A stretch of DNA of 26,645 nt from Funneliformis mosseae (lineage: Eukaryota; Glomeromycota; Glomeromycetes; Glomerales; Glomeraceae): positions 1 through 26,645 of the forward strand of contig CAJVPP010000757.1 in the NCBI GenBank assembly GCA_910592005.1, given 5' to 3'. The notes below the pieces were generated by a model, which saw only the letters and a list, made by a program, of their open reading frames with translations, searched no databases and was not told the origin of the DNA. Made by a program: the position numbers and the translations under genes. Positions 4,513-26,645 of this stretch are shown here, piece by piece (the stretch's first letter is position 1; each line of letters starts with the position of its first letter).

Positions 4513-7500
4513 ATGGGGATTCCAAAGTTCTTTCGATGGATGAGGTAACCATTTACAGCTTTGTACTTTTCCTTAAATAAAATTTAATGTTTTCATTCGA
4601 ATTGCTCTGTCGCATCTTTTAAAATACTCTGCAATTATTCCGGTCTTTAGTGAAAGATATCCGTTGTGTAGTCAACTAATTACGGAGAACAGGTAAGAAT
4701 TTGAATGCTAACTAGAATTGTCATTTCAAATAACTTTTTTTGTTCCATAATTGTTTATCATTTTTTGCATTCTTTCGTAAAACTCCGTTTTTTAGGATTC
4801 CGGAATTTGGTACCTTTATTTTTTTTTTGTTTTTTTTTTTTTTTTTATAATTTATTTTACATTTCATATTATTCAATCATTACATAAATTGTTGACACCC
4901 TTTTTCCACGTTGTAGATAATTTATACCTTGACATGAATGGCATTATTCATCACTGTTCCCATCCAAATGATACGGATGCACATTTTCGTGTTTCCGAAG
5001 ACAAAATTTTCCTTGATATATTTAACTATATCGATCATTTATTTACCAAAATAAAACCGAAAAAACTATTTTTTATGGCCATCGATGGTATTTATTGAAC
5101 TGTTTGTCATGCGTTTACAATTATTGTAATTAAATTGTGAATCGAATTGGAAATTCGTACAGGCGTTGCTCCAAGGGCCAAAATGAATCAACAACGTGCT
5201 AGACGTTTCAGAACCGCTAAAGAATCCGCAGAAGCTGTCAAAAAAGCCGAATCTAAGGGTGAATCGTTGCCTAAAGAGGCGCCTTTTGATAGCAATTGTA
5301 TTACACCAGGTTAGATTCATTTTATGTTAAACCTTTCTTTTGAATTAAATTTGATTGGATTCTCAAATAAAGAAAGTTTTTTATTGATACGTTTGATCAT
5401 TTAGGCACATTATTTATGGAAAAACTTTCACGCCAGCTCAAATATTTTGTAAATAAGAAAGTAACAGAAGACTCGAATTGGAGAAACATTGAAATAGTAC
5501 TTTCTGGTCACGAAGTACCGGGTGAGGGAGAACATAAAATTATGGAATATATTCGTAACACGAAAGCCCAAGAGAATTACAATCCCAATGTTAGACATTG
5601 CCTTTATGGATTGGATGCTGATTTAATTATGCTTGGACTTTTAAGTCATGATCCACATTTTGCTTTACTCAGAGAAGAGGTCACTTATGGACCAAGTAGC
5701 AGAAAGAAAAAAACAGGGTACGTTGAAAAAATATATTAAATGACTCTTACGTTGCAATGTTTTCCTAAACTTTAATTTCTTAATCATTTCAAAATATCAG
5801 ACGGGTTGAATCTCAAAATTTCTACCTCATGCATTTATCATTAATGCGTGAATATTTGGATCTTGAGTTCGGAGTACTTAGGGATAATCTTCCTTTTGAA
5901 TATGATCTCGAAAGAATAATAGACGATTTTGTCTTGTTAGCATTATTTGTCGGCAACGATTTTTTACCACATTTGCCCAATCTTCATATAGCTGAAGGGG
6001 CACTTGGTTTGATGTTTCACGTGTATAAATCAGTTTTACCGGATGCCGGTAAGTTACCATAAAAAATATTTAGGTTTGCATCTTCTTCCTAAATTTTAAT
6101 CTAGTTAATATTATTCAAAGGTGGTTATATTAATGATGGAGGGAAATTAGAATTGAGCAGACTTGAGATGATATTTAAAGTATTATCTAATTTTGAAAGA
6201 AATATTTATGAAGGTAATATGGAAGATTTAAAATGGTTTAAAGGAAAGAGGAAATTTCCGGATATGTTGGAGAAAGATAAAAAAAAGAAATTAAGTATGT
6301 ATCATCTGTACGTCAATTTATGCGTGCCTAAACTTAAATCATTGAGAAAATTTTTTCAATTTAATTAGTACTAACGCCAAAACAAAGAGAAATCTATGAT
6401 CAGGTCAAAAAATTAGTAGTATCACGTTCTTCGGAATCAATTCACTTTCCTGTTGATTATCCCGCAAGAGATCGTAATTTTATACAGAATCTTGCTAAAG
6501 ACTTTGGTATCAAATGTTTATCTGGATACGATGAAGTTGCGGAAGAAAAACATTTATACGTTGAATATGGTTCAGAAGATGGGTCAGACAATGAAATGAG
6601 ACATAAGACTTTTAAGAAATATGAAGAGGCAAATATTGTTGATGATGGTGATGTCGAAGCATCTGAAGAAAGAGAAAGACAGAATGAAGAAGATAAATTT
6701 ATTAAGTGGAAGAGAGATTATTATGGAAATAAACCAAAGATTGATTATGACGATCCAGAACAGTTGGATAGAATTGTCGGTTCATATATCGAAGGATTAC
6801 AATGGGTTTTGCATTATTACTACAGGGGTGTGGCATCTTGGGGATGGTTCTATCCATACCACTACTCGCCAAAGATTTCAGATTTACATGATTTGGAGAG
6901 ATTCAATATTAATTTTGAAATTGGAAGGCCATTCAAGCCGTTTGAACAATTAATGGGTGTATTGCCCGAAGGAAGTAAAAATCTTATACCCATTCCATAT
7001 CAGGTATTATGATGTTTAATTGATTTCTTATTTATACTACTTAAGAACCAAACAGCGTACTTATTGTTGCCTTTATCCTCTTTTTATATTATTTATATTT
7101 TTTTATTTATAATATCGACAGGATTTGTTGACTAATCCTAACTCTCCAATAATAGATTTTTATCCCCAAGAATTCGAACTTGATATGAATGGTAAAAAGC
7201 AGGATTGGGAAGCGGTAGTTAATATACCATTCATTGATCAAAAAAGATTAGTCGCTGCTTTGAACGGTGAGGTTATGAAATACAAAAAAATTTCCTATTT
7301 AACTTATATATTTAAAGCGATAAAATTTTTTTTGGGGGGTATTAGACAAGGAAGACGAATTGTCCGAAGAAGAAAAGCAAAGGAATAGTTTTGGTGACAG
7401 CCTTTTGTTTACATATGATCCAAGTCTGGACGAAAATTACCCTTCTTCATTACCAGGTTTTTTTCAAAGTATATATCTTCGTTAAATAAATTTTGCATAT

Positions 7501-10311
7501 ATTTCATGTTATCATACGTATTATTACAATCATAACAACAATTGTAACTTGCTATATTCAGACATTGAACATTGTAATTGTCGTACTGAACCTTATCATC
7601 TCCCAACTTTGGATGGTCTGAAGCTTTTAAAAGGGCTTTGTAACGGAGCTCGATTGGGGGTTGAAGCAATGGCTGGTTTCCCATCATTGCAAACACTTCG
7701 ATATGATGCGAAACTTGCACAACATGGAGTTAATGTTTTTAATTCAGAGAGCAAGCATGTTTTAAATTTTTTAAATACTCTCTTTTTTGAATCTATTTCA
7801 TATCAGCAAATAACAATCACGTCATTCAAACGTTATATAGAAACGAAACTATGGTTATTACATTAATTAATCAATTTGCAGATATGTCAACTGATGATTT
7901 GGCTCGTGAAAAACTTGGCAAGAGGATATTTGTTGGTATGTTATACTATGAATTTAATACAAATCTTTCATTTAATTTTAATCATTCTTGTTTATTGTCA
8001 TTAGGTTGGCCTTTTCTTCAAGAGGGAACATTACAAGCTATATCTGATGAAACCTTTAAATACGTGTGGTACACACCACCCAATGGGCAATCTTATGTTG
8101 ACAAATATCCCCATAAACAAGAAGATTGGCGACGGAAGGCCGATAAATGCGAACAAGTGTATAGTAAAAGATATGGGACAGTAACTGGAACAGTGGATGT
8201 TATTGCTCATGTTTCGGTGCTTAAAGGTATATAATAATTAATTATTTGATAATTATGATTATATATACTAATGTATATTCCAAAATTAAAAGGTATGAAA
8301 AGATTGCAAAGTGGCGCTTTAGTTAAAGAATATGCTAACGCTGGGGAGGAGATCGATTATGCAATGCAAACGACAGTGGATGGTGTTGAATGTGAGGATC
8401 CTAGATATAAAGAAAAACCTGCTATTTCATTAGCCGAGGAGTTTCCAATTGAAACTCGACTATTTTATTTGGGTAGTCCTTATTATGGAAGTCCTGGAAT
8501 CATAATTCAACATACTGATAAGTTCCTGTCCGTAAAGATGGTAAGTACTTGTGAGTTCTTTAAATATCTTTAATATCTTTAAATATTCGTGGTTTTTTCT
8601 TTAATTTTAAAGTTTTCTTTAGATTGTTGATAAAAATTATCAAAAAGAACCAGATTTCGGTCCAGAAATTGCAAGAAAATTTTCTAGTCGGACCAAATAC
8701 CTTCCTTCATATGCCGTTGCTAAAAAATTGGGTATGACTGGTTTAACTTTAAGCAAATTGACTGCCAGTTTGCATGTTAGTTGTAAATCAACCGATCAGC
8801 GTATCAATCTTGGCCTTAATTTAAAATTTGAGGCAAAGAAACAAAAGGTATTGGGATATACCAGGAAGACCAAAGATTCTTGGGAGTATAGCGAAAGAGC
8901 AATGCGCATTTTGGCAGAATATAAGGTTCGTCATCAACAATGAACATTTTTTGTTTGCTAAATTTTTATGCTTGTTTGAATCACTAAATTAATTAATCAT
9001 TGATTACTATTTCCTAAATCTTATAGGATAAATTCCCAGAATTTATTCAAGCTTTAGAACATAAGCATAAAGATGGTAATTATACATATTATTCCAATAA
9101 CTTGCGTAAAGTATTCTTTTGATTCTAACATGTATTTGCATAGAAATATATACTGCAGAAGACTTTTATCCCAAAGAAGAAGCCGTGTCCAAAATCCATG
9201 CTATCAAGGATTGGCTTAGAACCGTTGAAGTAAGGGATTTTGAAAAGGTATCATTGGATGCAGAGCAATTAGATAAGGTAAAGAAAGTTACTCTCCGTGC
9301 TATATCTTAATTTTTTTTTCTAGTGGTTGTATTGTACGAGTCTAAAATGATTTATTAATATAGGAAGCGATAAAAGATATAGAAAAAGCAGCTGATGAGT
9401 TTCTTGAACAACGTAAACTCACTAAAATTGAAGTTAAAAAATTATTGCGACATGTAAATAAATTATTTTTATTTTTATTATCTATTCCATGATCTAATAA
9501 ACTTAATTAACAACTTTTCCCCCTCCTCTTTTTTTTTTTTTTAAAAAAAAAAATCAAATAAAGCAATTATTAAAACCATCTCATGCATCAACGATATTGC
9601 AAAACCAAAATTTCAACCTCGGTGATCGAGTCGTTTTTGTTAAAGACACCGGAAGTGTACCCATCGCATCAAAAGGTACAATCGTTGGAATTGAAAAAAC
9701 CAATATCGATGTGGTCTTTGATACCACGTTTATGAGTGGGTCCACGTTAAGCGATAGGTTAGTTATTTATTCTTTATTATTACTTGAATCGAAACAAATT
9801 GTAATATGATTTAATTTTCCATAGATGTTCAAATTATCGAGGAATGACCGTTCCTTCTAACTCTTTACTTAACTTGTCAAGGCCACAATTCCTTGATCGT
9901 CATCCAAATAATGGAAATGGTGGTGGATCAAGACATGGATCAAGTTCTTATTATCAATCGACAGTTCAAAATGGACATAATATGTTTCATAATTCATACC
10001 CTCATTATAATTCCTACTCGAATCGTGGAAGTGGTAGAGGCGTTGTGCATTCTTCGAATAATCACCCTACGAATGGTTCATATCATCGTCCTCGTGGATC
10101 GAATGGTTACATATCAACGCATCAAAATCGATCACGTTCAGCTGGTTCACAATCTTCTACAAAATATATAGGAGGAGCCGTTGTTTATCGTGGCTTTAAT
10201 GGTAATTCAAGAGGTTCAAATGGGAACGGTTCTTTATTTAGAGGTCGTGGAGGACATTTTGGTAATGGTTTACCATCACGAGGGCGTGGAAGAGGTGATG
10301 GGAAAACATAA
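4513..10311 (+). CDS. XRN1: 5'-3' exoribonuclease XRN1/Kem1 (21 exons, complete)
   Basis: Degrades decapped 5'-monophosphate mRNA in the cytoplasm, the main 5'-3' mRNA decay route. Exons: 4513-4544, 4651-4692, 4796-4809, 4917-5087, 5163-5309, 5405-5717, 5801-6048, 6121-6294, 6369-7003, 7122-7266, 7346-7456, 7562-7750, 7807-7935, 8005-8226, 8293-8540, 8623-8925, 9027-9075, 9144-9277, 9364-9453, 9564-9757, 9825-10311. Phases agree throughout, giving 1,358 residues, close to S. pombe Exo2 and shorter than budding yeast Xrn1. It begins [15 protein letters not shown]. Catalytic acids are D35 (YLDMNG), D86, E176 and E178 (GEGEH), D206 and D208 (LDADL) and D293 (GNDFLP). A charged linker lies within the residue 381-592 exon, PAZ/Tudor-like and SH3-like regions follow (for example [11 protein letters not shown] near 1197), and the tail is Gly/Ser/Asn-rich with RGRG motifs. 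Oddities are a 14-nt exon 3 and an apparent GC-AG intron after exon 12. Confidence 0.96.
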
Positions 10312-16864: not shown

Positions 16865-18964
16865 TCATTTTTTATTAGATGATGATCTGTTATTTCCATA
16901 TAATGTACATCCATGCACCAATAACTTTGATGGTAACGGTGTTACTTTCCCAGATGGCTGTGCATTCAGCACCTGAACAAATTCCTTAAACAGATGCTTG
17001 TGATCCTTAAAGAAAAGAAAATTTTGAAATTTTGAAATTATGATTGATTTTCCTACCTAATTAACAAAAGTTTTAAATTTTACCTCATTAATGAATGTGA
17101 TGGCCCATCCGGAAGAATTTCCAGAATTTCCACTTCCTGAAGCTCTTCCAACCTGATGTACATACTCATCAACAGAAACTGCCATATCAAAATTTATTAC
17201 CATTTCAACATCAGGTAAATTTAATCCTCTACTTAGCACTCCTGTTGATACTATGACATCATAGTCTCCATTAAGAAATGATTGTAAAATCATCATTCTT
17301 TCTCCCTGTGATTTATCTCCATGCATACTTACACTTCTCACATTACATTTCTTTTCAATTGCTTGTGATAATAAATCTGCTCCCATCTTAGATTCTACAA
17401 ATATTACTATCGGTGGATTATAGTACTTTGGATCATTTAAAATTGAAAATAATTGTTTCTTTTTAGATTTATTTTCTATCCAAAGAATAGTTTGTTTAAC
17501 AGGAATACATGGTATAAAATTCAATCGGGAGTTTTCCGGATCTTTGTTATTGTCTAGCTGAGCACCGACAATGATTCTAATATGATCCTTAAGTAAAGAA
17601 TTGGCGAGTTTTTCAATAATTTTCGGGAAAGTAGCTGAAATCATTAAAGTTTGTCGTCGTGCGCTTGTAATTGGTAAAGGTAACTTATCTATAATCTCTC
17701 TAACTTGCTTTTCAAATCCCATTTTGAACATCATGTCAACTTCATCCAATACAAACATATGAATATTGTTCATTGATAATTCTTCGTTAGATTGATTTAA
17801 AATATCTATAAGTCTTCCTGGTGTTGCAATGGCGATTTGAGTTCCTTGTTTTAATCGATGAACTTGATTTGGGATGGGTAATCCCCCAACCAAAAGTGAT
17901 GTTTTCATATTCGTTAACCCTCTTATTAATCCTTTTGTCAGATTCTCAATTTGTGAACAAAGTTCTCTTGTTGGCGCCAATATAATTGCATAAGGTCCAT
18001 TTTTCCCTTCATAACATTGTGACAATGACCAACAATGCGAAATTATTGGAATTAAAAAGCTTGCGGTTTTTCCTGTTCCCGTTTGTCCACTTGCTAATAT
18101 ATCACGTCCGATTAACGCTGTCGGAACGATTTGCATTTGAATTGACGTTGGTTGTGTATACCCTTCTGTTTGTAGATTTTCCATCATTCTTGTCGGTAAT
18201 TTACATTGTGAAAAACTTAGTATAGGAGGAGGAATATTTTTTCCTTGGACATTAATTTTATTCCTTTTCAAAATATTTTGTATTTGAACTCCTGTTAAAG
18301 AACTAATATCTGTAGGTAATGTATAGCCTGTAAGTTGTACATGAAATAACCCTGATATTGGTGTTTCTACTTCAATTTTCGTTTGAGTCTCTTTTAAAGA
18401 GAATCGTTGAATTTTTCCCCCATTTTTGACACGTTCAATATCCACTTTCTTGCATTCCAAGCTACAAACATCATGATCCGTCTCATCACAAATATATTCG
18501 CCATATTTTCCGCATATTACACAAATTGGTTCCCCGGCAACAGCTGTACGTTGTTGGTTACTATACTCTTTTACTGCTTCCTCGTGTTCATCGATTACTA
18601 CAATTTCTTGATCTTGTGAATTTGGAACTTGTCCGTTCACTATAATTCTCGGAGAATATTTATCAAGTTCTTGTTGATCAACTGTATTAGGTTCAACTAT
18701 CATATGTTCAACCTCTAACGATATTTGCTGATCCGTAAGTTGTGTTATCTCTCTTATCTGTTTTACACTTGTTGTCTCGTCCTTTTCATCGAGATTTATG
18801 CTTTCAGTTTGAGTTACATTCTTTTGCTTATCTTGAACAACGAGGTCCAAATTTTCAGCAGTCGATTCTTTAGAAATTTCTGAATCATAAATTATCGTCT
18901 TTGGTTTTTTATTATGTATCTTTGAAACTGGTCCGGTTCTTTTTACAGCTCGGGGAACGAACAT
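16865..18964 (-). CDS. DDX59-like DEAD-box RNA helicase with HIT zinc finger (2 exons)
   Basis: Exons 18964-17084 and 17005-16865 on the minus strand join in phase 0 and give 673 residues; human DDX59 is about 619. After a charged N-terminus, a zf-HIT-type finger lies at about 148-171 (C148, C151, C159, H164, C167, C171). The helicase core has the Q motif (QPTSIQMQ, about 271-278), Walker A (SGQTGTGKT, 292-300), PTREL (331-335), TPGR (381-384), motif II as DEVD (407-410), SAT (443-445), motif IV (IVIFVES) and motif V (STGVLSRGLNLP). Motif VI reads HQVGRASGSG, so the last Arg of the usual H-R-x-G-R-x-x-R is missing and a Gly/Ser/Asn run follows. The finger plus helicase order is diagnostic for DDX59, an ATP-dependent RNA helicase linked to RNA processing in animals; its fungal role is unknown. 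It is convergent with the amidohydrolase gene, 225 bp apart. Confidence 0.92.
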
Positions 18965-19066
18965 GATTTATTTTTTTGTAAAGTACAGTATTTAAAAAAA
19001 AAAATTTTCGAGGTATTTATTAAGAAATTCGTGTTACCGCAGTAAATCAAAATTACTAAGTGTTCG

Positions 19067-19175: not shown

Positions 19176-19184
19176 CTTTACTCT
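19176..19184. repeat. Left 9-bp target-site duplication of outer transposon
   Basis: CTTTACTCT lies directly outside the left inverted repeat. The same nine bases lie directly outside the right inverted repeat at 24763-24771. Confidence 0.88.
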
Positions 19185-19198
19185 AGCATAGCGAACTT
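19185..19198 (+). repeat. Left terminal inverted repeat of outer transposon
   Basis: Fourteen bases, AGCATAGCGAACTT, perfectly inverted relative to 24749-24762. Similarity resumes a few bases further in and extends the imperfect repeat to roughly 37 bp. Confidence 0.88.
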
Positions 19199-21646
19199 TC
19201 ATTATGATTGGTCAATTTTCGCAGATCATTTTTTATTATGCTAAAATTCTATTGGCTGATAAAGTCACATGATTCATTAATTATTAAATCGAAAAAAGTG
19301 TTAATTAATAAAAAGAATTAATTTTTTTTATCCATTTATAAAAATATTATTAAATTATTGTATTATTTATATTTTATTAATGTTTTTCAGCTACACTTCA
19401 TATGATATATAATAACATTTTCTTTAATTATGCATTTGTCAAAGCATTTACAGCTCTTTCAAAAAGAGAATCTATATTATTATCTAAAGAAAAATCTTCA
19501 ATTCCAATATTAGTATTATCATTAGGTTCAATAATATCCAATTCATTTATATTCTCATCTGTAACTATCCCACTAAAGAATCCAAAGTTTTTTGAAAGGC
19601 TTTACAATTATTTTCAATTCTGCTTATAAGATAATCAGCACAATATTGACATTTACTATCTAATTTAAATAAAAAACATTCAAAATAATAACAATGATCA
19701 CAAATTAAAATACAACCTACTTCACATGAATTTTCACAATCTTTCAAATCACAATATCTATCTTTTTAAGAAGAATATGCTGTATTCCAAGCCATTGGCA
19801 AAATCTTAACATCAATTTTAGTATCTAATGTTATAAGTTCATATAATTTAGAAGAAATAGCCTTGGATTTGTTAAGATTATGATATATATCTGTAAATAA
19901 ATTTAATAAAAAAAAGAGCACTGCTTTTTTAAAGATATTCTAACTGTTTTGCTGAATATCTAATATTATGATCTTCAGAAAACATATTAGTAAAAGAGTT
20001 GTCACAATGCATTTAATTAATTATTCACGCTTGTTGAATAATCTGTTTCACAGTGTTTGATTTTTATATTTATTAATAGAGAGAACTGTGAAAATTTTCT
20101 ACATAGTAATCATTAAAATGTAAAGAGAATCCTAAAGAACTTGTGAAATAGGATGATTAGTATTGTTTCAATAAAAAAACATCACTTAAAAATGCTAATG
20201 GTAACTTATTATAATATCTACGCTGATATTGATAAAAAATAACTCACACACAGAACATGGCTTCTTTATATGCTAACCAATTTTCACTATAAAATATAAT
20301 AGGATAAAAATCTAAAACTAATGATACAATATTATTCAGCAAATTGATAAAATATCTGACTTCTGGATTCTTAAACTGCTCAAATTTTTGTAGAATTATT
20401 GAATGCATTCGCATCTAACTTTGAAATACTAATTCTAAAAGTAGATTAATTTTGTAAGTTTTTAGCTTTTTCGCCAATACCTTTTGATATCCAAATATTG
20501 TATGAAAAAACTTGTCAAAAAATTGATAATTTAAAAGAAACAAAATTTTACGACTATTTAAAGATATATGTAAAGGTCTGATTATTAAAACAATATATAG
20601 AACTTATACTGATATTCCAGAAGGATCTCTAACTTTAATATGATAGGTAATAGCATGACGTACATTTAGTTATCCAGAATAATCCATAGGCGTCACTAAT
20701 ATTTGTGTTTTTATATAAGTTTTTACTTCAGAAATATTTAACAGATGTTTAATTGCATTTACAAAATCTTTAGTTGAATGTAGTGAACCTTTTTTTAGAT
20801 TAACCAGTTTCGTATTTTTCATATTTTGATTGATATGACGTTGTTAAATCCTATCATTATAACTATGAACCAAAAGACGCTCAATTCTTTTATTATAAAT
20901 TTCCAATATAGACATTAAATTAGCAACGTTCACTTTCATCTTGTGTAACTAAGCCATAGAAAAAAAAATGTATGAGCATTTTGTATAATAATGGTTGCAT
21001 CAATGCCTTTTCATTGTGAATACTCTTTTTTTGATTAGGATTATAAAATGGGATAGATGCTATTTCTAGCAAAACTTTTAAGAGTATCGTAATGAAATGT
21101 TAAACATCATACATAGTTGTTATGTTACTGTGACAGTACTCATGAATATTGTGAAAATCATCCACATTAAGAACAATCAAGTTTTCATTCTGTTTAAAAG
21201 ATAATTAGTTAATTTAATTAGATTAATTATGAATATAACACTCATATAAATAAATATTTTTATACATATATTATCTATTAAAAACCTTTCTACTGTTATT
21301 GTATGTGCTTCTAAATGCTGTGCGTTTTGTCTTGCAATTGTCATTTGTCTTACCATCAAACCCGCATCAGCTAATGTCTCTATTGCTGATGAAGATGTTT
21401 CAGATGCGTCTAACATAGACCCAATCTCTGCTTTAATCTCATTAATAAACTTATTATTGAGTTCCGCTAAAAAATAGCAAAAAGAAACCAGTCTCTTCTA
21501 TTTTTTTTGTTAGTTATATTATTTTTAGTTTGTGAATTTGTTCTGACTACTAACTGATCAAAAAATCCCTTCAATGACGATTCAGCCTTCTTAAGCATTT
21601 ACTTGAATTCATTCAGATCTAGAATAGGTCATTCGTTATACATATT

Positions 21647-22452
21647 TTAAAGCTTTGAATAGTTCAATTCAGTCCAGATTAGATGCTAATTCATATCTGA
21701 ACTGAAAATTTCAGTTCAATTCAGTTCAGATTATTAATCTTAAAAATGCCAATCTAAATCTGAACTGAACCGCAGACTGGTAAAAATCTGAACTGAACTG
21801 AAATTTTCAGATTAATCTGAAATTACAGTTTGATTATATAAGAAATTCACAATTTATATGCGAAACTTTAGGAAAATCACAAAAAATCGCTAATTTCTCT
21901 TCGAGGTTTGCAAAATTTAAAGAGAAATCATAATTTTTTGCAACTATCTAAAAATTTCACAATATTTTTTGCAAAATATTAAGAAAAATCGCAAAAATTG
22001 CGATTCTCTAAGGATTTTACAATTTTTTTGTAAAATTCGAAAAGAAAATCACAATTTTTTGTGACTCTCCAAGAGTTTCGCAATAATTTTGCGAAATTCT
22101 AAGAGAAATTGCAATTCTTTAAGGTTTTCGCAATTTTTTTGCGAAATTCGAAAAAAAACTACAAAAAATTGTGATTCTCTAAGAGTTTCACTAAATTTTT
22201 GCGATTCTCTTAAAAAATTTGCAAATTTTGCAATCCTTTAAGAGTTTTACATATAATTGAACTGACCTTTTAGATTAATCTAAAATTATCAGTTCAGTTC
22301 AGATTTTTTTCAGTTCAGATTAGAATTATAATCTGAAAAAAATTTGAACTAAACTGAAAATTTTTAGATTGATTTTTATGCAATCTGAAACCAATCTGAA
22401 CTGATTTGATCTGAAAAATCTTCAGATTAATCTGAACTGTTCAGAGCTTTAA
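21647..22452. mobile_element. Foldback-like non-autonomous element with hairpin satellite core
   Basis: The ends form an imperfect inverted repeat: TTAAAGCTTTGAATAGTTCA at the left and, inverted, TTAAAGCTCTGAACAGTTCA at the right (18 of 20 identical, both differences transitions). Each arm of about 190 bp is packed with TCTGAACTGAA and its complement plus the palindrome TTCAGATTAATCTGAA. The core, about 21840-22250, is a degenerate tandem array with a unit of about 60 bp, each unit self-complementary around GCGAAATTC and TCTAAGAGTTTCGC. There is no coding capacity. It lies inside a predicted intron (22586-21619) of the decayed transposon gene. No certain target-site duplication was found, so the exact ends are approximate. 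Confidence 0.7.
21840..22250. repeat. ~60-bp palindromic tandem repeat array
   Basis: About six degenerate units alternate GCGAAATTCTAAGAGAAATC-like and TTGCGATTCTCTAAGAG-like halves. Neighbouring halves are complementary, so single strands could form serial hairpins. This is the core of the foldback-like element. Confidence 0.7.
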
Positions 22453-22900
22453 CACACGTTATCTTATATATAACGTCTCTGCCATTAGTTTAATCTTTTT
22501 GCTAAGAGGAATTAATTCTAAAATATATTAATTATATAAGAAGCAGTCTAGAAATAATTACATACAAAATGTATTTAGTTACTTACCTAACTTTATTTCA
22601 TTAAGTTCTGAACATACATCATTATATTCAGCTTTCAGTTCCTGAAATTTGGTTTCAGAATAAATAATATCGCTACACAAAATATATGACCAACCCTTAA
22701 ATTGTCTTAAATTCTCTTTCGTAATCCTCTCATTTACTAGTAAATAATTGGATATATTTTGATATTCTGGATCCTTATCAGTTCTATATAAACAGTGGTG
22801 ACACATATTTGCCTCTGATAGAAGATCAAAAAATTTAATTAATCGTTCTAGTGCCTTCTTTAATTTCTTCTCCTCTTTACTGTTTCTGACTGTAGATATA

Positions 22901-24211
22901 CAGTGCCTGGCAACAAATCACCGGTCACATGACATTGATCAATTTTAATGCAAATTTTTAAATTCAAATTATTCGATCATTGCCACACCAAATTTAATAA
23001 AATTTTTTTTATTTGCATAATAAAAAACTTCAGCTATTTATTAATACTTTGTTAGATGACCTTTACTTTTTATAACAGCAGCAACTTAATGAGACATGCT
23101 ATCAACAAGATTTTGATATTTATTAATATCAAGATTTGATCACTCCTCTTGAAATATTTCCCATAAATCTTCCCTATTTTTTGGTAATGAAGTGTGTGCC
23201 CGCACCTGCCTTTCTAATTCATCCCATAAATTTTCTATCAGATTAAGATCTGAACTCTGTACAGGTCAGGGAATATTATTCACTTTATGTTTCACTTTCC
23301 ATCTTTTAATAATATTTGCAATGTGTATGGGAGCGTTATCCTCTTGAAAAAAATAATTATCCTGATTATCTAAACCCTTTAAAAATATAATTAAATTATT
23401 TTTTAACACTTTCTTATATACCGTAGCTGTTACCCTCCCTTCTAATTTTACTAATGGACTAAGATTATGTTTTACAAAACATTCCCACACCATTACTCCT
23501 TGTTGATCCGACTTTACTGTAGGAATTAAACACTCTACATTATACTTTTTATGAAGCTGCCTCCAAACTTACCTTCTACCATTTCCTCCAAATATTTCAA
23601 ACTTGGATTCATCACTCCAAATGATACTTTCCTATTCATTTATCCACTCTTTTCTTTCTTTAGCCCAGGCAAGTCTTTTTTGTTTATTTTTTTCACTTAT
23701 GAAAGGTTTTCTTACACCAATTCGACCATAGAAACCTTGTTCATGAAGGTAAGTGCTTAAAGTTTTCTTACTAACTTTTGTTGAAGTGGAATTGATAAAT
23801 TCTTCATGTAATTCCTGAAGATTCATTTTTCTATTTTCTTTAAGAATTCTCATCAAATGATGATCATCTCTTTCAGTTATTATAGGCGGTCTACCAGTTC
23901 TAGGAGCAAGTGTTTCGTCTCCACAATTTTATAAGCAGAAATAACATCATGAATAGTACTTTAGGGATGGTTTAAAGCTTCGCCAATCTTTCTTTCGCTT
24001 ATTTCACATTTCCAAGTACCAATGACTTCACCATGTTCAAAAATGAAAAGTTCTTTTCTTTTAAAAGCCATGTTTAAATAAGAAAGATTTTAGTAATACG
24101 TGGCAAAAAATTAGAGATGTATTAATAAGAAAATGGCTGAGATAACAGATTTTAAAGATAAACAAATAATAATCAACAATCACGTAACTGGTGACTTCTT
24201 GCTAAGCACTG
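22901..24211 (-). mobile_element. Decayed Tc1/mariner element (DD34E), 1,311 bp
   Basis: The ends are inverted repeats beginning CAGTGCCTGGCAA on the left and, inverted, CAGTGCTTAGCAA on the right. Similarity continues for at least 30 bp with mostly transition differences. TA dinucleotides flank both ends (22899-22900 and 24212-24213), as expected for this superfamily. The length of 1.3 kb and the single transposase gene fit a full-length but inactive Tc1-like copy. It is inserted in coding sequence of the outer transposon gene: the coding block ending HPKYN continues with LQSET on the far side. Confidence 0.95.
23041..24071 (-). pseudogene. Tc1/mariner transposase pseudogene
   Basis: The minus-strand frame starts MAFKRKELFIFEHGEVIG at 24071 and ends at 23041, about 343 codons, the usual Tc1 length. 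A helix-turn-helix DNA-binding region comes first (KIGEALNHP; then TGRPPIITERDDHHL), followed by the DDE domain. The first Asp is in IIWSDESKF, the second in FFQEDNAPIH, and the Glu in NLIENLWDELE, with 34 residues between the last two (DD34E). In-frame stops end at 23961, 23632, 23569, 23266, 23140 and 23086, and one base is missing near 23930, so it is inactive. One stop replaces the Trp of the usual WP-x-Q-S motif, consistent with a G-to-A change. Confidence 0.95.
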
Positions 24212-24748
24212 TATATAAATTGTATTTTGGATGAGAACATAGGTTAGGTTTTGGCTTTTTTACATTTACTATCAATTTATTATAGTGCTTTCAGCATAAA
24301 GCCTTGCTAACCAAGTTCAGATGTTGACTTGAACTTGGTATTGTTACTTGCTCAGATATAATAGATGCTCCATGCTTTTCATAATCGCAGGCAACATCAT
24401 CCTGACCCTTTAAATCACAATATTGAGCCTTTCTTTTTCCCTTTTTTTCATTTGTGATAGTTATTTCTTTATGAACTTTCTGTATAGATATTTTGCATGT
24501 ATTTTTTTAATAAAATCGTCTATTATAATAAAATAGAAAAAAACTCTTATTAGCTAACTTCTGAATTACCAAACTTCTTCTCAAATTATTTTATTATGCA
24601 ATAAATCAAGATATATACTTTAGACAATTTTTTATTATAACCTTAACGAATTCCTCCTGTAGCTGCGAATCCATTTAAAGTTAGATGATCATTTTTTTAT
24701 ATGAATTTAATATGTGACAATCATTTTGAAAATCAACCAATCAGGTTT

Positions 24749-24762
24749 AAGTTCGCTATGCT
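24749..24762 (-). repeat. Right terminal inverted repeat of outer transposon
   Basis: The inverted copy of AGCATAGCGAACTT forms the right end of the outer element. Reading inward, the TGATTGGT block follows five bases later. Confidence 0.88.
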
Positions 24763-24771
24763 CTTTACTCT
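24763..24771. repeat. Right 9-bp target-site duplication of outer transposon
   Basis: CTTTACTCT, an exact copy of 19176-19184, immediately outside the right inverted repeat. Confidence 0.88.
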
Positions 24772-25750: not shown

Positions 25751-25760
25751 ATCACGTGAT
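25751..25760. promoter_or_regulatory. ATCACGTGAT palindrome (copy 3)
   Basis: The third exact copy of the 10-bp palindrome, about 186 bp upstream of the likely start codon of the coiled-coil gene. It is followed directly by a (TA)n run. Confidence 0.4.
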
Positions 25761-25780
25761 TATATATATATATATATATT
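25761..25780. repeat. (TA)n microsatellite
   Basis: About nine uninterrupted TA units between the palindrome and the coiled-coil gene. Confidence 0.75.
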
Positions 25781-25855
25781 AAAAGGAAATTCATGCAACA
25801 TATTTTATGCAATTTCTATTGGTGTTTTGATTTTCTCACGTTTTTTTTTCTCACG

Positions 25856-25957
25856 TTTTTTCTCACGAATTTTTTTTTTATAATGGGCCGTATTCATTTT
25901 TTCTCACGTTTTTTTTCTCACGATTTTTTTTTTATAATGGGCCGTATTCATCGACGA
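25856..25957 (+). repeat. 54-bp in-frame tandem duplication around the start codon
   Basis: The sequence CTCACG, a T-run, then TAATGGGCCGTATTCAT occurs twice, with start codons at 25883 and 25937 exactly 54 bp apart. The flanks contain further CTCACG plus T-run units. Because 54 is a multiple of three, both ATGs share a frame. Confidence 0.8.
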
Positions 25958-26368
25958 AGATTTTTTTGTGGTGCCTCAACAAAACTTGCCCAAAGACAAA
26001 GAGAGCATATTCGAAACTTAGAATCTGAAGTTGCAGACCAAAAGGATGAAGCTCAAAAACTTAGAAAACAATTGTCTACTGCCGTTTCTTTAATTGTTGA
26101 GTCAGGAAATGAAATTCAGTTTTTAGTTGAGGATTTGGAAAGACTTTCCGGTCTTCCTTCAGAGTTAAATAAATGGTATGAAAAATATAATACTGTTCGA
26201 AATAAGTTAGAGACTTCCAATAAGAATTTAGAAGGATATAAAAGCCAAAACAAAAACTTGGCTCATCGTTTAGAACAGGTTCAGGTATCATGGCGAGCCT
26301 TAGACAATTTACTTAAGCAGAAAAGTATTAAATTTAATTTTCCTTATATTAGTTCTGGTTTTCACTAA
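25937..26368 (+). CDS. Small coiled-coil protein, function unknown
   Basis: From the ATG at 25937 the frame gives 143 residues, MGRIHRRRFFCGASTKLAQR onward. Almost all the rest is heptad-like coiled coil (about 15-125), rich in Leu at regular spacing, Lys, Glu and Asn, ending KSIKFNFPYISSGFH. Two in-frame ATGs lie upstream. The one at 25883 arises from a 54-bp duplication and would add an odd Phe-rich stretch; the one at 25793 would add more hydrophobic sequence and give 191 residues. I chose 25937 because the protein there starts with a plausible basic N-terminus. No known family was recognised; similar coiled-coil proteins act as scaffolds, but no function can be claimed. The last exon segment is duplicated downstream, so alternative C-termini are possible. 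Confidence 0.6.
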   Translation: MGRIHRRRFFCGASTKLAQRQREHIRNLESEVADQKDEAQKLRKQLSTAVSLIVESGNEIQFLVEDLERLSGLPSELNKWYEKYNTVRNKLETSNKNLEGYKSQNKNLAHRLEQVQVSWRALDNLLKQKSIKFNFPYISSGFH

Positions 26369-26427
26369 CTTTTATTTGAGAACTGGCGTATTGTTTATCT
26401 GGCCTTGGGGCTACGGCTTGTCCGTAT
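26279..26427 (+). repeat. Terminal-exon duplication, copy 1
   Basis: This segment holds the last 29 codons of the coiled-coil gene plus about 60 bp of 3' flank, and is repeated 216-218 bp downstream. The 3' flank part (GGCGTATTGTTTATCTGGCC onward) is identical in both copies, while the coding part differs at scattered bases. Confidence 0.85.
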
Positions 26428-26494
26428 TGATTTTTCTGTCTCTTGTGTCTACGCTCTCTCTTTTTTTTTTTTTTTTAAATCATCTTATAAACAG

Positions 26495-26645
26495 GTTCAT
26501 ATATCGTGGCGGGCCTTAGAAAATTTACTTAAGCGGAAAAGTATTAAATTTAATTTCCCTTATCTTATTTCTGATTTTTCACTAACTTTTTATTTGAGAA
26601 CTGGCGTATTGTTTATCTGGCCTTGGGGCTACGGCTTGTCCGTAT
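26495..26645 (+). repeat. Terminal-exon duplication, copy 2, possible alternative last exon (runs off window)
   Basis: The copy is preceded by a long T-tract and a clean acceptor (TTATAAACAG). In phase 0 it reads VHISWRALENLLKRKSIKF and, because of two extra T residues, stays open to the window end instead of stopping as copy 1 does. It could be an alternative terminal exon joined from a donor at 26279 or 26285, or a remnant. The window cuts it, so any further copies are unseen. Confidence 0.6.

Follow-up and report, generated by a model that had tools for sequence, protein, structure and literature searches.

What is the multicopy gene of no recognized function that lies between short inverted ends in a 26,645-nucleotide stretch of Funneliformis mosseae DNA (contig CAJVPP010000757.1, positions 1 to 26,645; the whole stretch is called the window here), and does it move the DNA that surrounds it? 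A reading of the window made from the letters alone (the sequence-only reading) had proposed that the gene family is a transposase, or cargo, of a DNA transposon with 14-bp inverted ends and a perfect 9-bp target site duplication. Our analysis indicates, with a probability of roughly 0.87, that an autonomous DNA transposon of the cut-and-paste kind lies, in decayed form, at positions 19185–24762 and that its single gene, encoding a protein of about 840 amino acids (aa), is its transposase. The gene is most likely, on sequence comparison, the enzyme that moves the element, and it belongs to a group unrecognized by standard domain libraries. The proposal of a transposase appears strongly supported by the anatomy of the family, in which the gene lies inside ends bordered by 9-bp duplications in two clades.

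The window copy measures 5,578 bp from end to end, with inverted 14-bp ends and CTTTACTCT repeats immediately outside them. The 14-mer AGCATAGCGAACTT occurs at 19185–19198 on the plus strand and at 24749–24762 on the minus strand, and a search of the window at up to two mismatches returned these two element ends only (shuffled sequences gave a mean of 0.12 matches, and 0 of 100 shuffles gave two). The boundaries claimed in the sequence-only reading, an CTTTACTCT duplication around inverted copies of AGCATAGCGAACTT, were confirmed at their places, with no third match in the window. Across the 82-Mb assembly the exact 14-mer occurs 8 times, compared with 0 occurrences of a reversed-pattern control; seven of the eight lie at the ends of gene copies, and the remaining one (on C370) does not.

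The association between gene and ends extends to the whole family. A 112-aa piece of the gene matched 38 places in the genome; eight copies were represented by two rows each, and merging these left 30 copies. A second piece (73 aa) matched 94 places, and the core of a distant copy gave at least 105 matching rows, some of them pieces of one copy, when 94 of 395 candidates were scored. Ends of the head type were found 41 times genome-wide (control, 0) and ends of the tail type 32 times (control, 2). The check that the sequence-only reading had proposed on homologues of the gene came out positive: a correctly oriented matching end lies near 23 of the 30 copies, both ends at 9, the head only at 11 and the tail only at 3. 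At least four of the one-ended copies (C1236, C3875, C3741 and C2820) are located at a contig end. In addition, five short head/tail pairs with their ends 588–708 bp apart (C461, C481, C2605, C3902 and C60) all carry the TTTTTCTGTGATTGG tail variant; judged from these ends and from a spacing too short for the gene, they probably form a gene-less subfamily.

The length of the duplication is constant. Lengths of 4–12 bp were tried in the 11 elements for which both ends could be placed. The flanks agree at 9/9 positions in five (the window copy, L044, L053, L054 and L062) and at 8/9 in three (L045, L049 and L058), and no length other than 9 bp reaches an 80% match in the 11 elements. In the window clade, where the boundaries were placed from end sequence, 6 of 8 elements show the duplication (5 of 7 if the window copy is set aside). 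The duplicated 9-mers differ between elements (L062, for example, has a perfect duplication of ACATGTACT), and if G+C is taken as 25%, a match of at least 8/9 would arise by chance with a probability of about 6e-4 per element. The claimed boundaries hold for other copies, which have the same ends and, in many cases, 9-bp duplications of differing sequence.

A second clade, consisting of L057, L058, L059 and L062, carries the gene between different ends. Window-clade rows are 29–37% identical to L057 at the protein level. The second-clade ends start TCATA (TCATAGGA...), or TTATA or TTATG in L059, and CATAG together with a subterminal TGATT is common to most second-clade ends and the window clade. 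These elements are compact, being 2.9–3.1 kb long and mostly gene (in L062 it takes up about 2.56 of 3.07 kb), and their lists of open reading frames (ORFs) showed no second gene. The gene is also present in a third group, L060 and L061.

The sequence-only reading had placed one long decayed gene between the ends of the window copy and had related it to a large, lineage-specific Rhizophagus family. The decay is borne out, but the gene does not fill the 5.5 kb, because two insertions are nested in it: a Tc1 element and a repeat of about 806 bp. The features of the window copy are the following.

19176–19184, no strand: left copy of the 9-bp target site duplication CTTTACTCT, equal to 24763–24771 at 9/9; of the lengths from 4 to 12, 9 alone fits
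19185–19211, plus strand: terminal inverted repeat on the tail side, in which a subterminal TGATTGG is conserved, from the window match and end comparison
19574–19912, minus strand: decayed putative transposase gene, C-terminal part, in a frame that differs from that of the core (tblastn piece)
19899–21497, minus strand: core of the decayed putative transposase gene, with the D2, PLH and E motifs in frame and the D1 region shifted out (sequence comparison)
about 21647–22452, no strand: nested AT-rich repeat of about 806 bp with no listed ORF of 80 aa, missing here in sister copies
22582–22898, minus strand: upstream coding segment of the putative transposase gene, interrupted by the Tc1 insertion (homology)
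22899–24213, minus strand: nested Tc1/mariner element with a TA target and transposase fragments at 23632–23928 and 23266–23568 (HTH_Tnp_Tc3_2, inverted ends, insert-free sister sites)
24212–24494, minus strand: N-terminal coding segment with the Cys cluster, far limit approximate (homology to the L041 reading frame)
24732–24762, minus strand: head-side terminal inverted repeat with conserved TGATTGGTTGAT, from the window match and end comparison
24763–24771, no strand: right copy of the 9-bp target site duplication CTTTACTCT, identical to the left copy

The Tc1/mariner element has TA flanks, an HTH_Tnp_Tc3_2 match at 1e-17 and 37-bp arms that are 81% identical, and its insert-free site is visible in sister copies L043 and L047. 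Ownership of the outer ends by this Tc1 element was ruled out, as it is nested with a TA site of its own. The repeat of about 806 bp is absent at that place from sister copies, whose sites align uncleanly there. It is a high-copy sequence, with at least 30 other genome places matching most of its length at 75–88% when 40 of 672 candidates were scored, and it is rich in inverted repeats; its ends read TTAAAGC...GCTTTAA (TTAAAGCTYTGAA). It resembles a non-autonomous element whose target may be TTAA. Without both inserts the window element would be about 3.46 kb long, and of seven other window-clade elements six measure 3.4–3.7 kb and one (L053) 4.65 kb.

Three other regions of the window were also read. 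The minus strand at 17057–18967 encodes a DEAD-box helicase that has a HIT zinc finger; the upstream end of its open frame lies about 220 bp from the transposon, and the insertion may influence its promoter. Exons of an XRN1-like 5′–3′ exonuclease (XRN_N, XRN_M and XRN1_D1) occupy 4796–8943. At 25760–26645, adjoining the transposon, a short coding stretch, SWRALxNLLKxKSIKFNFPY, is present twice, and the longer frame there gives a TMF-like match at 4.9e-5, under the curated cut-off.

The protein of about 840 aa, encoded on the minus strand in the window, has an N-terminal Cys cluster, candidate D/D/E residues and a C-terminal RING-like finger. In L057 the gene is a single 838-codon frame interrupted by four internal stops. 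Its N-terminal cluster reads C21-x4-C26-x34-C61-x2-C64, and its C-terminus, C733-x4-C738-x16-C755-x-H757-x2-H760-x2-C763-x7-C771-x2-C774, has RING-H2-like spacing; the window clade apparently has a different N-terminal cluster and introns, as far as sequence comparison indicates. Candidate catalytic motifs, in L057 numbering, are LNIDDYHSIH (D249, where what looks like a strand ends), ADWPGQ (D399, followed by a conserved PLHxSLN), LHVSLN (H437) and VEIF (E595). Conservation was counted over 23 of 28 matching loci, five having been dropped for short coverage. Position 249 is D in 15, N in 6 and V in 1 of 22; position 399 is D in 18 and N in 4 of 22; and position 437 is H in 18 of 23 and Y in 3. 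Most changes at the candidate catalytic residues fit C-to-T or G-to-A decay.

Profile searches at the protein level were run on an alignment of 13 family members, of which several are partial and not all reach the C-terminus. Single-member matches to Kinesin (0.0014) and zf-H3C2 (0.01) in Pfam and to KaiC (0.00036) and a DnaQ exonuclease model (0.093) in NCBIfam were judged to be chance. Assignment of the finger to PHD or another known zinc-finger type was not adopted, as the profiles gave weak RING matches only. Contig scans confirmed no relatives in viral or prokaryotic contigs, and literature searches by feature or end sequence returned no recognizable description of this family among the matches listed.

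The copies have decayed substantially. One frame of the window core contains 19 stop codons, some perhaps intronic, and part of the core is shifted to another frame. Relative to its relatives, the window copy shows 5,171 transitions and 2,017 transversions. The observed/expected CpG ratio is 0.63 in the window element versus 1.01 over the window's first 19 kb; in nine other elements compared with their own flanks it is lower in 4, equal in 1 and higher in 4, so CpG loss is not a constant feature. In Rhizophagus irregularis, DNA methylation is reported to occur at transposons (PMC8647823), and such methylation would fit the transition excess if the host is a relative of R. irregularis.

A working scheme can be proposed around what was observed directly, namely the ends, the 9-bp duplications, the family-wide link between gene and ends, the short end pairs and the decay. 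Binding of the ends would probably fall to the N-terminal cluster, which resembles a zinc knuckle (in the distant clade, C-x4-C-x34-C-x2-C), and the central part would act as a DDE/RNase H-type nuclease through D249, D399 and E595, both catalysis and DDE fold being predicted from the motifs. Cleavage by this nuclease would take place at the asymmetric pair of ends (AGCATAG...TGATTGG), which it would then join to target strands staggered by 9 bp; repair of the stagger would produce the 9-bp duplication. The RING-H2-like finger would close the protein at its C-terminus. Copies that share these ends but are too short to hold the gene may have been moved in trans. Decay of the copies, mostly through transitions, followed, and the window copy was later invaded by the Tc1 element and the other repeat.

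Several observations weigh against the view that this is a transposon moved by its own gene. Seven of the 30 gene copies have no end within range, three of the 11 elements (L048, L050 and L057) show no duplication, and two further duplications carry less weight: L058 was first seen in a search that demanded a duplication and is therefore not independent, and L059, which lies beyond the 11 and has an 8/9 duplication with TTATAGGAAGACTTTC-type ends, came from the same kind of search, in which its locus control also gave one hit, and is counted as support only because its ends resemble those of its clade. A de novo end search around L061 gave 2 hits versus 1 in the control, which is not clearly above background. 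That the short pairs lack the gene and have moved is deduced from their length. As to the protein, E595 is E in 5 of 8 covering alignment rows and K in 3, and other conserved acids, D524 (22/22) and D192 (22/23), could be catalytic instead, which makes the triad assignment an inference. No transposase profile in Pfam or NCBIfam matched the 13 members, which returned only weak RING-type and scattered single-member matches; no relative was found among PDB sequences at E values up to 10; and the fold predicted without an alignment for the window read-through piece is meaningless, at a mean predicted local distance difference test (pLDDT) score of 36. Finally, all copies with inspected frames carry stops or frameshifts, so activity at present would be hypothetical.

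Could the ends and duplications have arisen without transposition, by chance or segmental duplication? AT-rich sequence makes short matches frequent, and the three elements that lack a duplication would be expected on that account; yet the 9-mers differ among elements, and at about 6e-4 per element a match of 8/9 or better is so rare that we consider this origin scarcely credible. It is improbable, too, that the gene is a passenger of a transposon of a known superfamily whose transposase lies elsewhere. Such cargo has a precedent in fungal DNA transposons of several superfamilies that carry a TET/JBP gene beside the transposase (PMC12730594), and this protein matches no known transposase profile. 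The compact distant-clade elements nevertheless show this gene as their sole one, and the gene and the 9-bp duplication stay together in two clades with different ends, which favours the gene being the transposase of the element.

A third alternative concerns ancestry only and is compatible with a self-mobilizing element: the family might be a very divergent Mutator-like element, of MULE or Rehavkus type, whose protein has passed beyond profile recognition. The 9-bp duplication is typical of MULE and Rehavkus (PMC6446971). AT-rich tandem arrays near the tail end of L062 and L044 may point the same way; no such array adjoins the tail end in the window copy. The order of the candidate D2, a conserved H and E resembles that of MULE and hAT cores. 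Moreover, none of the 13 members matches any transposase profile, though the MULE profile finds 119 places in the same genome, 115 of them over its cut-off. The spacing of about 150 residues between D1 and D2 is also long for MULE. We regard Mutator ancestry as a real possibility that falls somewhat short of even odds.

The transposon with its own transposase, as preferred here, may tentatively be taken a step further. It is possible, though less likely than not, that this family is the first of a new superfamily among the cut-and-paste transposons of eukaryotes, defined by asymmetric CATAG-type ends, 9-bp duplications and a transposase of about 840 aa with an N-terminal Cys cluster, long D1–D2 spacing and a C-terminal RING-H2-like finger, comprising at least two clades as well as short derivatives that lack the gene. 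It would so far have escaped notice within the unclassified repeats of mycorrhizal fungal genomes. Repeats of this kind make up about a quarter to a third of the R. irregularis genome (PMC8647823 and PMC11075540). Because its ends are defined, its duplication length is fixed and its core gave at least 105 matches in one genome, the family provides annotators with a concrete model; if it corresponds to genes now counted as lineage-specific unknowns, those would become transposases, and the defined ends enable empty-site comparison between strains.

MULE, Rehavkus and Merlin are the known systems that a 9-bp duplication suggests. The duplication is 8–11 bp in MULE elements and 9 bp in Rehavkus, which also has a PHD finger and a minisatellite before its 3′ end, according to PMC6446971. 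The present family resembles both in its 9-bp duplication, its inverted ends and its one transposase-like gene with zinc fingers, and differs from both in that its RING-like finger lies at the C-terminus. No MULE, FLYWCH or SWIM profile matched, and the ends are short, at about 14–30 bp; the MULE transposase domain matched 0 of the 13 members, and when the list was read by eye, none of the MULE profile places fell on the 29 contigs that carry the 30 gene copies. Rehavkus has a PHD finger; the Cys/His spacing here is RING-H2-like, with weak RING matches. A counterpart of its minisatellite might be the AT-rich arrays of L062 (295–405) and L044 (5058–5126), which have a period of 12–14 and 3–5 copies and lie about 85–200 bp inside the tail end; the window copy has one 27-bp array at 21202 and others inside the nested inserts, none of them near the tail end.

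Merlin (IS1595-like) elements share a duplication of 8 or 9 bp (PMC8101967). Their ends, however, start GG and their protein contains DDE_Tnp_IS1595, whereas the ends here start AG, AA, TC or TT (mostly AG or TC) and the protein has about 840 aa; DDE_Tnp_IS1595 matched neither the 13 members nor the genome, in a scan whose control was detected in 1 of 14. The sequence-only reading had doubted a Mutator-like or Merlin identity, and profile search recovered neither. The Kyakuja-Dileera-Zisupton (KDZ) group has large proteins with Cys clusters and, as another likeness, occurs in fungi; the hAT core has a D2 followed by an xxHxxLN-like motif, which likewise resembles this protein. According to PMC12730594 the duplication is 8 bp in Zisupton and usually 8 bp in hAT, as opposed to 9 bp here. 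The KDZ transposase profile matched none of the 13 members, and neither did the hAT dimerization profile, for which not all of them reach the C-terminus; elsewhere in the genome hAT dimer-domain matches number at least 150. Identity with KDZ, MULE, Merlin or hAT was rejected by profile search. What the family does share with class II terminal inverted repeat (TIR) transposons as a whole is inverted ends on dispersed copies and a duplication of constant length, and we accordingly place the element, on sequence profiles alone, as a putative TIR cut-and-paste transposon of no assigned superfamily.

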